This document shows positions 37,311-41,148 of a DNA stretch of 64,000 nucleotides, piece by piece; position 1 is the stretch's first letter; every line of letters starts with the position of its first letter. The stretch is from Candidatus Binatia bacterium. Its GTDB lineage: Bacteria > Desulfobacterota > Binatia > HRBIN30 > BPIQ01. Location: assembly GCA_026004195.1 (NCBI GenBank), contig BPIQ01000005.1, forward strand, positions 1 through 64,000. The letters are read 5' to 3'. The position numbers and the translations under genes are program-made. The notes beneath the pieces are model-generated. The model made no database searches. It had not been told where the DNA came from and saw only the letters and a list, made by a program, of their open reading frames with translations.

Positions 37311-37649
37311 ATGAAAAAGATCGAAGCCGTCATCAAGCCCTTCAAGCTCGAAGCCGTCAAAGAAGCGCTTTCCCGCGAAGGAATCCAGGGGATGACCGTG
37401 GCCGAAGCAAAAGGCTTCGGGCGGCAGAAGGGGCACACCGAGCTTTACCGGGGGGCCGAATACGTCGTGGACTTCCAGCCCAAGATCAAGGTCGAGGTAG
37501 TCGTGGAGGAGGCCAAGGCCGCCCGTGTCGTCGAAGTGCTGTCCGAGGCGGCGCGCACGGGCCGCATCGGCGACGGGAAGATCTTCGTCACACCGGTCGA
37601 GGAAGTCGTCCGTATTCGCACCGGAGAACGAGGCAGCGACGCCCTGTGA
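37311..37649 (+). CDS. glnK: P-II nitrogen regulatory protein (GlnK/GlnB)
   Basis: A 112-residue P-II signal protein. It starts [20 protein letters not shown], has the T-loop [18 protein letters not shown] with Tyr51 (uridylylation site) in place, and ends with the C-loop [26 protein letters not shown] senses 2-oxoglutarate and ATP/ADP and blocks AmtB directly. It is followed after 40 bp by the ammonium transporter, which is the canonical glnK-amtB pair. ATG 37311 follows GGAGGAG. Confidence 0.93.
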
Positions 37650-37689
37650 ATCACGAGACCACCGACGGAGTCTACGAGGAGGGTACGAC

Positions 37690-39534
37690 ATGAACCCGAG
37701 GCGGACTCGAAAAGCGGCTCCGGTAATCGCGTTCCTGGCATTCTGCCTCCGGCCTTTGCTGGCGTGGGCACAAGAACCGTCGTACGACACCGGGGACACG
37801 GCCTGGATGCTCACGAGTACGGCGCTCGTCCTCATGATGACGATCCCCGGTCTCGCCCTTTTCTACGGAGGTCTCGTCCGTCCCAAGAACGTCCTCTCCA
37901 CGCTGATGCACAGCTTTTTCTGCGCCGCACTCGTCAGCGTGACGTGGGTCCTCTATGGCTACTCCCTCGCCTTCGGTCCTACCCTCGACGGCTTCGTAGG
38001 CCGGCTCGACCACGCCTATTTCCGGGGCATGGTCGGCAACCCGAGCGAACTCGCACCCACGATCCCCCACGTCCTTTTCGCCGCGTTCCAGGGCACCTTC
38101 GCGATCATCACCCCCGCTCTGATCTCGGGAGCGTTCGCCGAGCGCATGCGGTTTCCCGCCTTTGTTCTCTATATGTTGCTCTGGTCCACGTGCATTTACT
38201 CGCCGCTCGCGCACTGGGTCTGGGGCGGGGGCTGGATCGGCACCGAGCTCGGGGCGCTGGACTTCGCCGGCGGGACCGTGGTGCACATCTCGAGCGGCGT
38301 CTCCGCCCTGGTGACGGCACTCTACCTGGGGCGACGTCTCGGCTACGCGCCGGGAGAAGCACTCCCTCCGCACAACCTGCCCCTCACGGTCGTCGGAGCC
38401 TCTCTGCTCTGGGTGGGGTGGTTCGGCTTCAACGCCGGTAGCGCACTCGGCTCGGGCGAGCTCGCGTCCGTGGCGTTCGTCAACACGAACACGGCGGCAG
38501 CAGCGGCCGCCTTGGCGTGGCTTCTGGCCGAGTGGCTTCGGGCGGGCAAACCGACGATCCTCGGCGCCGCGTCGGGAGCCGTTGCGGGTCTCGTGTGCAT
38601 CACGCCGGCTGCGGGCTTCGTGACTCCGGCAGCCTCGATCGTCTTCGGGCTCGCGGCCGGGATCGTCTGCTACATGGCCGTGATGGCCAAGACGCGACTC
38701 GGGTACGACGACGCGCTGGACGTCGTGGGGGTCCACATGGTCGGAGGAACCCTCGGTGCTCTGCTTACCGGGGTCTTCGCCACTTCCAGCGTGAACCCGG
38801 CCATTTCGGACCTGACGGGGGGGCTTCCGGGCGGCCTTTTTTCGGGGTATCCGGAACTCGTCGTCAAACAGCTCCTCGCGGTCCTGGCCACGTACGCTTT
38901 CTGCGGGTTCGGCACGCTCGTGATCCTGGTCGTCGTCAACGCCGTCACGGCCCTGCGGCCAGCGGCCGAAGACGAGCTTCTAGGTCTCGACCTATCCCAG
39001 CACAGCGAGCAAGCCTATCCTCACTTCCAGATCGCCCACGGTCTCGGTCCCGGGGAACGGCGGAGCCTGGAGAGAGAACTCGAGGAGGCCGAGCGGCGCA
39101 GGCAGCGGATTCTCGAGCTCATGCACTCGGCGGAGACCGGTGCGGGGAGAAGCTCTCTGCGGTCGACCGAGGAACGAAAACACGCCGAAGTGCAACGAGA
39201 GGTCGCCGCAGCCGGCTCGCGTGTCCCCCCGACCACCACCTCCCGCGTGCCCCCGCCCCCGAGGCCCGCGGCGGCACCCCCCCGCGGTGCGGGCGGAAGC
39301 CGTCTCGTCGTGGAAAACGTCGACAAGAAGTGGCTCAAGGCCGTCTGGGAGGACCTCTGCCAGCAGTACCCCCTCAACGTGCCGCCCGACTTCAAGGAGA
39401 TCTACGAACAGGTCGTCTCCTTCCGCGACAACGTGTTCACCTTCCGCGGGGGTGACGCCCAGCGTTACCGGGACAAGGTCGCGAACCTCCTCTACCTCTA
39501 CGGCGTGGAAAATCCCTCGATTCGCGTCGAATAG
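37690..39534 (+). CDS. amtB: Ammonium transporter with unusual C-terminal domain
   Basis: A 614-residue Amt. A signal-like first helix ends AWAQ. Eleven helices then contain the transporter blocks GLALFYGGLVRPKNVLS, HWVWGGGW, twin pore His (HISSGVS and GVHMVGGTLGALLTG) and FGFNAGSA. The core ends near residue 440. Beyond it is a charged linker (about 440-540), which first has helix ERRSLERELEEAERRRQ, then Pro/Arg stretch, then a 74-residue domain from VENVDKKWLKAVWEDL to ENPSIRVE. That domain is not part of normal AmtB. It may bind the adjacent flotillin or serve as a signal module. GlnK and flotillin flank it. Confidence 0.88.
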   Translation: MNPRRTRKAAPVIAFLAFCLRPLLAWAQEPSYDTGDTAWMLTSTALVLMMTIPGLALFYGGLVRPKNVLSTLMHSFFCAALVSVTWVLYGYSLAFGPTLDGFVGRLDHAYFRGMVGNPSELAPTIPHVLFAAFQGTFAIITPALISGAFAERMRFPAFVLYMLLWSTCIYSPLAHWVWGGGWIGTELGALDFAGGTVVHISSGVSALVTALYLGRRLGYAPGEALPPHNLPLTVVGASLLWVGWFGFNAGSALGSGELASVAFVNTNTAAAAAALAWLLAEWLRAGKPTILGAASGAVAGLVCITPAAGFVTPAASIVFGLAAGIVCYMAVMAKTRLGYDDALDVVGVHMVGGTLGALLTGVFATSSVNPAISDLTGGLPGGLFSGYPELVVKQLLAVLATYAFCGFGTLVILVVVNAVTALRPAAEDELLGLDLSQHSEQAYPHFQIAHGLGPGERRSLERELEEAERRRQRILELMHSAETGAGRSSLRSTEERKHAEVQREVAAAGSRVPPTTTSRVPPPPRPAAAPPRGAGGSRLVVENVDKKWLKAVWEDLCQQYPLNVPPDFKEIYEQVVSFRDNVFTFRGGDAQRYRDKVANLLYLYGVENPSIRVE

Positions 39535-39543
39535 GAGGCGTCC

Positions 39544-41148
39544 ATGGCGCTCGTGTGGACCCTGGTCGTTCTCGTTCTCGTCGCCGCCCTGGTCGGGGTG
39601 GCGGTCTTCGTCCGCCTCTACGTGAAGGCTCCGCCGAATGCGGCCTTCATCCGAACCGGGCTCGGCGGGAAAAAGGTGGTGGTCGACGGCGGGGCGATCG
39701 TCCTTCCGGTCGTCCACAGCATCCAGTGGATCTCGCTCGAGACGTTCAAGCTCGAGGTCGTCAAAGCCAACAAGGAAGCGTTCATCACGAAGGACCGCTA
39801 CCGCGTGGACATCGGCGCGGAGTTCTACATCAAGATCAACCCCGACGCGAAAAGCATCGAAGCGGCTTCGCGGACGCTCGGAGAAAAGTCTTTCAGCGCC
39901 GACGGTATCCGGGCACTCGTGGAAGAGAAGCTCGTGGCCGCGCTGCGTTCGGTCGCGGCGGCCACCGAGCTGGTCGAGCTCCACGAGAACCGCCGGAAGT
40001 TCGCACTCGCCGTCAAGGAGGTGCTCCTCGAACCTCTGGCCTACAACGGCCTCACCCTCGAGGACGTCTCGGTCTTCCACCTCGACCAGACGAGCAAGGA
40101 GTACCTCGATCCCTCGAACATCTTCGACGCCGAGGGACTCAAGCAGATCACGCTCCAGACCTCCGAGCGGCAACGGGAGCGGAACGAGATCGAACGCAAC
40201 ACGGAAGTCGCGATCCGACGCAAGGACGTGGAAGCGGTCAAGCTCAAGCTCGCCCTCGACCAGGACCGGGAGTTCGCCGAAGCCGACCAGAAGCGCCAGA
40301 TCGAGACGTACCGCATCCAGCAGGAAGCCGAAACCGAGCTCTTCCGCTTCCAGTCCGAGCAACGGACGCGGGAGGCCGAGATCGCCAAGGAACGGGCGGT
40401 GGAGGAGGCCCAGATCGAGCGGGAGAGGGCGGTCCGGGAGGCGGAAGTCAAACGCGAAGCCTACCTGATCCGAGTCGCCGAGGAGCGCGAGCGGGCGGAA
40501 ATCGAGAAGGAACGCGCCATCGAGGAAGCCAAGCGGGCGCGGGACATCGCCGTGCTCCTGAAGGAAATCGAACGGCTTCGCGAGGAGAAAAACCGCCTCG
40601 AGAGCGAAGCGGCCCGGGAGCAGGCAGCGCAGGCCGTGCTCACGGTCGTGCAGAAGGCCGAAGCGGAACGGGCGCGGGAGATCGCTCTCATCGACGCGCT
40701 GCGCGAACTGGAAGTGGCCGAGAGGCGCGCCAAAGCCCGCGAACGGCTCGCCGCGGCCCGCAGAGCCGAGGGGGAAGCCGAGGCTTACGCCGTCTCGAAG
40801 CTGCGCGAGGCGGAAAACATCCTGGGAGAGAAATTCATCGTACGCGACATCGCGCAGGCGCTCATCGAAAGAGCCCCGGAAATCGCCTCGGAACTCATGG
40901 CCCCGGCGAAACAGATCGAGAGCATCCGGGTTCTCAGCGTGAGCGGTCTCGGCGCGGATGGCGCGGCGGACACGAGCGGGGTCGGCGGTGTTCTCGCCGC
41001 CTTCTTGCGCTCCGGTGCGGCGCTTCCCCTTCTCAAGGAAATTCTCGATTTCGCCGGCATCGACCGGGAAAAGGCCCTCCAGAAGATCACGGAAAAAGTC
41101 CCGATTCTCCGGGAGGTGAGCCGGGAAAGCTCGACGGCGCAAAAATAA
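39544..41148 (+). CDS. Flotillin/SPFH domain membrane protein
   Basis: A 534-residue flotillin-like protein, starting 9 bp after amtB with GGAGGCGTCC before ATG. One membrane helix at residues 2-25, an SPFH/band-7 domain (about 28-205, KVVVDGGAIVLPVVHSIQWISLE ... FITKDRYRVDIGAEF), then about 230 residues of Glu/Arg/Ala coiled coil (EIAKERAVEEAQIER...), and a C-terminal oligomerisation part (about 440-534). It resembles YqiK and flotillins, which organise membrane microdomains. The gene order with glnK-amtB implies it shapes or anchors the ammonium transporter. The tight spacing makes co-translation likely. Confidence 0.87.
   Translation: MALVWTLVVLVLVAALVGVAVFVRLYVKAPPNAAFIRTGLGGKKVVVDGGAIVLPVVHSIQWISLETFKLEVVKANKEAFITKDRYRVDIGAEFYIKINPDAKSIEAASRTLGEKSFSADGIRALVEEKLVAALRSVAAATELVELHENRRKFALAVKEVLLEPLAYNGLTLEDVSVFHLDQTSKEYLDPSNIFDAEGLKQITLQTSERQRERNEIERNTEVAIRRKDVEAVKLKLALDQDREFAEADQKRQIETYRIQQEAETELFRFQSEQRTREAEIAKERAVEEAQIERERAVREAEVKREAYLIRVAEERERAEIEKERAIEEAKRARDIAVLLKEIERLREEKNRLESEAAREQAAQAVLTVVQKAEAERAREIALIDALRELEVAERRAKARERLAAARRAEGEAEAYAVSKLREAENILGEKFIVRDIAQALIERAPEIASELMAPAKQIESIRVLSVSGLGADGAADTSGVGGVLAAFLRSGAALPLLKEILDFAGIDREKALQKITEKVPILREVSRESSTAQK

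Follow-up and report, generated by a model that had tools for sequence, protein, structure and literature searches.

Why does an ammonium channel (Amt) of a Candidatus Binatia bacterium carry an additional domain at its C-terminus, and why does a flotillin gene follow it almost without a gap? The question arises from the window analyzed here, by which we mean the whole 64,000-nt stretch (positions 1 to 64,000, forward strand, of contig BPIQ01000005.1, assembly GCA_026004195.1), where glnK (37311..37649, a 112-aa PII protein), amt (37690..39534, a 614-aa channel with a C-terminal extension) and the gene of an SPFH2-type flotillin (39544..41148, 534 aa) form a single run on the plus strand, in that order. 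The gap between glnK and amt is 40 nt, and that between the Amt stop and the flotillin ATG is 9 nt, with a GGAGG motif inside. An original prediction made from the letters alone had given the coordinates, order and lengths of these genes and the 9-nt spacing, all of which agree with the open reading frames (ORFs) and domains recovered here. Our preferred answer, to which we would give a probability of roughly 0.55, is that the locus encodes a transporter-dedicated flotillin module, in which the last domain of the Amt (“the tail”, residues 538–614, 39301..39531) docks the channel onto its own flotillin. At the genomic level, the two genes are linked by gene order, by conservation of the tail, by joint presence and absence, and by the lack of the usual flotillin partner domain, YqiJ_OB.

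Among 145 genomes of the class searched with the whole Amt, G431 alone matched through the tail (G-numbers denote comparison genomes, the window’s own being G000). This genome belongs to the same order as the window genome but to another family, and has 12 nt between the Amt stop and the flotillin, the Amt being 74% identical (query residues 28–612) and the flotillin 75%. Identity amounted to 329/406 residues in the Amt core and 139/163 in the SPFH domain of the flotillin, and within the extension to 32/47 in the helix region (444–490), 12/47 in the linker (491–537) and 50/77 in the tail. Non-synonymous divergence (dN) was 0.14 in the core, 0.23 in the helix region, 1.06 in the linker, 0.28 in the tail and 0.10 in the SPFH domain, with synonymous changes between the two genomes near or beyond saturation. 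Because the tail recurs in G431 at a far higher identity than the linker, and given the dN contrast, we take it to be genuine coding sequence, and these comparisons indicate purifying selection on the helix as well as on the tail. Across 30 kb of the window and 10.8 kb of G431, an ORF comparison found only the Amt and flotillin genes in common (all other rows being frames that overlap one or the other), so the two genes stayed together while their surroundings changed.

To the limits of our searches, the tail and the flotillin travel as one. A profile of the two tails gave strong matches in G000 and G431 only, out of 148 class genomes, and both have a flotillin directly downstream (9 or 12 nt). 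The original prediction had linked the tail to flotillin and to a conserved gene order, and this held in 2/2 strong matches: no strong match came from a flotillin-free genome in the class or phylum sample, and the order is kept in G431, the one relative with a tail. Weaker class matches (G431:C56, G512 and G435, E 0.02–0.05) were treated as chance, as were G119 (E 0.008) and G291 (E 0.0098) in a 395-genome phylum sample, where nothing further was better than E 0.008; a plasmid collection gave no match at E 1. The best 80 named Amts among the matches listed were without a tail, none overshooting the normal end by more than about 30 residues, and without a flotillin nearby, with many of the stretches ending at contig ends.

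A tree of 72 Amts places the window protein and that of G431 as sisters (support 100/98) within a six-member clade (100/100). The other four members (G395, G406, G412 and G424) are tailless and end two residues after the tyrosine beyond which the tail starts; no flotillin was found within the 7–12 kb surrounding them, nor are these genomes among the 14/145 class genomes with a flotillin match (10 best candidates scored per genome). Within the order, 3/15 genomes have a flotillin (G000, G431 and G401) and 2/15 the Amt–flotillin pair, and in G413 and G455, from the genus of G431, scoring of every candidate turned up no flotillin and no copy of this Amt. Tail and flotillin thus occur together and are missing together.

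The flotillin itself has a Band 7 (SPFH) domain (PF01145, residues 28–190, 39625..40113) and a C-terminal Flot domain (PF15975, residues 392–505, 40717..41058; 70.3 bits, cut-off 27), both over cut-off, so that the SPFH assignment of the original prediction was correct; the flotillin scored 50.2 bits against the 700-bit threshold of the FloT equivalog NF058507 and is thus not assigned to it. Hydropathy peaks at 2.95 (19-residue value) at residue 3, and windows above 1.6 start at residues 1–12 only, which describes one N-terminal hydrophobic segment (~residues 3–26, 39550..39621) followed by a long soluble part. Passages of PMC2636767 describe SPFH2 flotillin genes as sharing an operon with the gene of an NfeD2-type membrane protein (YuaF, YqiJ). 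No such partner operon was found for the window flotillin, the upstream gene being amt. Outside the pair, nine flotillins of the class have a readable upstream gene, and in five of them it encodes YqiJ (G401, G422 and G511 by Pfam; G088 and G210 by a profile from those three), with a weak YqiJ match in a sixth (G530, E 4e-8). YqiJ_OB was detected in 3/148 class genomes, exactly the three with a Pfam-confirmed YqiJ–flotillin pair, and was not found in G000, G431 or G475, other NfeD families not having been searched. With Amt upstream here and YqiJ often upstream elsewhere, the tailed Amt occupies the position of the flotillin’s usual membrane partner. Left out of this count were nine loci of distant SPFH proteins (L123–L130, E 5e-4 to 3e-10, and L148 of G530), with no YqiJ or Amt match in the surrounding stretch, and G475, whose flotillin begins at a contig edge. 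The latter (L138 2-1012) is the closest relative outside the pair, with 61% identity over residues 188–527, and its genome (80% complete) has no tail match and only a distant Amt.

The Amt is an ordinary ammonium channel up to about residue 443, as Ammonium_transp (PF00909) spans residues 38–443 (397.9 bits, cut-off 23.2) and TIGR00836 scores 451.9 (cut-off 343.3). Residues D191, H199 and H349, the conserved pore Asp and twin His of Amt channels, line up with E. coli AmtB (chain 1xqe) and are invariant across 15 aligned Amts, and the GLDxxxH region, presumably the PII contact region of the C-terminus, is intact in the Amt alignment (GLDLSQHSEQAY). GlnK is an ordinary PII protein: it matches the P-II domain (PF00543, 114.7 bits, cut-off 25), its closest PDB sequences are PII proteins, and by residue count it has Arg47 and Tyr51, T-loop residues important in PII proteins. 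The window genome has three Amts, each with a nearby glnK, and the one at 37690–39534 is the only one with the tail. Hydropathy predicts no membrane segment beyond Amt residue 443. The full-length AlphaFold2 model (15 sequences; mean predicted local distance difference test score, pLDDT, 75.7; predicted template modelling score, pTM, 0.62) has a mostly helical core followed by helices at 454–482 and 490–507, a low-confidence stretch at 507–534 and a folded domain at 538–614. This agrees with the helix, Pro/Arg linker and unnamed domain (there 541–614) of the original prediction. The first helix (39049..39135) is charged, conserved with G431 and modelled at pLDDT ~87, and the Pro/Arg-rich linker at 507–534 (39208..39291; pLDDT <50, little identity to G431) is probably disordered. 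Modelled alone from two sequences, the tail reached pLDDT 87.5 and pTM 0.72, with a beta-alpha-(alpha)-beta-beta-alpha-beta topology in a ferredoxin-like arrangement. Nothing in Pfam exceeded cut-off (best DUF2358, 14.6 bits vs. 24.3), NCBIfam gave zero matches, and the best PDB sequence match had an E of 0.041. Searches with the model returned weak and mixed neighbours in Foldseek (best E 0.038) and, in VIA-align, an AcrB porter domain (Z 5.5) and RRM, ACT-type and SbtB domains (Z 4.7–4.9). As these matches reflect only a common arrangement, the tail was not assigned to the ACT, PII-like, RRM or AcrB-porter families, although it may still belong to any one of them.

A first alternative is that the tail is an ACT- or PII-like sensor of a small molecule or regulator which gates the Amt, the flotillin being co-expressed for general reasons of the membrane and without touching the tail. 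The ferredoxin-like model, with ACT-type and SbtB domains among its weak neighbours (Z 4.7–4.8), is compatible with this, and fusions of Amt proteins with signalling domains, sensor kinases for example, exist; the PDB search also returned entry 8qj3, a 644-residue “Ammonium transporter”. In such fusions, as in the window protein, a cytoplasmic extension follows the Amt core at the C-terminus, but here Pfam finds neither a kinase nor any other domain over cut-off in the extension, which goes together with a flotillin. Because AcrB porter and RRM domains score as well as the sensor-like ones, and because a sensor would leave the joint presence and absence of tail and flotillin unexplained, we regard this explanation as possible but unlikely.

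A second is that GlnK, or another enzyme under PII control, is what the tail binds, the adjacent flotillin being an operon of convenience. GlnK heads the run in the window, and a ternary AmtB–GlnZ–DraG complex is on record in the reference list of PMC7646526. In G431, however, the pair has its flotillin but GlnK was not found beside it, the tailless relatives have the same GLDxxxH region, and GlnK is near 18/30 class Amt loci, which are tailless except for the window’s. This explanation therefore seems improbable to us. As for the operon, the region upstream of glnK gave no match to a strict sigma-54 promoter pattern, nor did the rest of the window’s plus strand (the single match is on the minus strand, at 16967), a sigma-70-type scan of 36900–41500 gave no promoter match, and terminator-like sites were not above shuffled sequence (5 vs. 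a mean of 4.0), so the operon structure is read from spacing and strand only.

A third, that the tail is a functionless read-through relic or gene-fusion accident, takes its appeal from the four tailless sisters stopping two residues past the tyrosine beyond which the tail starts, and is made very improbable by identities to G431 of 68% in the helix and 65% in the tail with 26% in the linker between them, by the dN contrast and by the confident predicted fold. An assembly or binning artefact is hardly credible: G431 is in ~210 contigs with its pair on one of 15.8 kb, but the window genome is in 6 contigs (98.94% complete, 0.03% contaminated), the pair recurs in this second genome at 74–75% identity, and the G431 stretch has a G+C of 0.605, near the 0.591 and 0.596 of two other stretches of that genome. 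The pair’s G+C is in fact close to that of its neighbourhood in both genomes, which leaves a recent transfer of tail and flotillin unsupported, whereas an old one may have taken place.

Several observations weigh against the docking module. The independent sample amounts to one event, since the two tailed Amts are sisters and imply a single gain of tail and flotillin, and the ferredoxin-like fold of the tail points to no function. GlnK was not found in the 10.8 kb around the G431 pair. A flotillin could have been missed where scoring stopped at the 10 best candidates of each genome, and among the tailless sisters the G395 genome is 74% complete. The missing YqiJ is by itself weak evidence, because SPFH2 without NfeD2 occurs elsewhere (in 17 genomes, according to passages of PMC2636767) and because 3/9 of the other flotillins follow neither YqiJ nor Amt: that of G355 (L153 184-3447) closely follows a pyridine nucleotide-disulphide oxidoreductase gene, and those of G241 and G534 an ORF without a Pfam match. 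The partner of the closest flotillin, that of G475, cannot be read at its contig edge. The interpretation in the original prediction finds partial support: the partnership is strengthened by the partner-slot finding and by joint presence and absence and narrowed to 2/15 genomes of the order, and the nitrogen-status control of a membrane raft that it put forward is a possibility.

If the tail is indeed a docking module, an Amt keeping its channel residues would have acquired a cytoplasmic helix, a linker and a small alpha/beta domain, and the tail would tether the Amt trimer to an oligomer of the adjacently encoded flotillin, which would have exchanged a general partner (YqiJ/NfeD) for a specific cargo. 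AmtB C-termini are cytoplasmic, and as the flotillin has a single N-terminal hydrophobic segment, the tail and the body of the flotillin are probably on the same side of the membrane. The likely effect would be a channel clustered, or held at the base of a flotillin ring, with channel density and GlnK access then set by membrane organization as well as by GlnK; for transport, the outcome could be clustering, sheltering, shut-off or exclusion of GlnK. Along with the tail–flotillin contact, we infer this direction of effect and any link to nitrogen status. Human flotillins, as described in passages of PMC11260169, assemble from 44 subunits into a closed cone that sits on the cytoplasmic face and has a wall without holes, and the Amt tail would bind an assembly of this kind. 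More speculatively, the tail might be a cargo-recruitment domain through which the ring replaces YqiJ/NfeD by one transporter as its inner client. The dome would then limit ammonium diffusion and GlnK access and form a micro-compartment for uptake, an extension that we put forward tentatively and consider unlikely.

By analogy, the nearest known system is the marine rhodopsin–flotillin tandem. Passages of PMC10308929 describe FArhodopsin genes adjoining a flotillin gene with a 16-nt spacer, the flotillin being found mainly where the rhodopsin is, and mention no added docking domain. The likeness lies in a polytopic membrane protein and a flotillin on the same strand with a short spacer (9–12 nt here), kept across divergent lineages, an adjacency found here in two genomes only, the window’s and G431; FArhodopsin has a rhodopsin as partner and hundreds of sequences, whereas in the pair described here the partner is an Amt whose C-terminal domain is new. 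The YqiJ–YqiK and YuaF–YuaG (NfeD2–SPFH2) operons in passages of PMC2636767 also join a membrane protein gene to an SPFH2 flotillin with the same domains, but there the upstream gene encodes an OB-fold YqiJ/NfeD, and here a tailed Amt in a genome where no YqiJ_OB was found. In Arabidopsis, AMT1;3 partly co-localizes with Flot1, and less Flot1 leads to more membrane AMT1;3 under high ammonium (passages of PMC8644385). This likewise links an ammonium transporter to a flotillin, there in removal from the membrane, and differs in being eukaryotic and endocytic, with no operon and no extra Amt domain mentioned (passages of PMC8644385, PMC6052134). The statement in the original prediction that no AmtB–flotillin partnership had been described accordingly holds for bacteria as far as the open-access papers listed go, among which no such pair was found (a co-mention of flotillin and AmtB in passages of PMC10970341 is unrelated), and fails for plants (AMT1;3–Flot1, PMC8644385).

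Flotillin matches were also obtained from 319 plasmid records, none of the 20 matches listed covering 80% of the query. A Bosea plasmid flotillin has an OB-fold protein upstream. On Variovorax paradoxus plasmid CP063167.1 (L178 2064-5043), a phosphoenolpyruvate hydrolase family protein lies upstream of the flotillin. An ABC transporter permease and SRPBCC proteins belong to the same run, which contains no annotated OB-fold partner, and this flotillin is perhaps also tied to a transporter. Elsewhere in the window, a Thr/Pro-repeat-rich ORF without a Pfam match follows the flotillin (42209–43540), and the minus strand encodes a 1046-residue protein (31547–34687) that combines a PSCyt1 (planctomycete cytochrome c) domain with FG-GAP repeats. 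Short repeats are dispersed at 1028–1760, 4603–5081, 13838–14160, 16613–16901, 26392–27082, 50059–50150 and 58663–58724, several being arranged in tandem (with a period of 141 nt at 1028–1760), and the same family occurs beside another glnK of the window genome (L003 3295-3541).

The function of bacterial flotillins is unsettled, partly because work on most of them has treated them as general scaffolds, for which there are many candidate clients. If our reading is true, client and docking module would both be defined at this locus, and methylammonium uptake, Amt localization or GlnK binding would serve as a simple read-out. It would also provide a bacterial counterpart to plant AMT1;3–Flot1 and to the marine rhodopsin–flotillin tandems, and would suggest that flotillins have repeatedly been recruited to single transport proteins.

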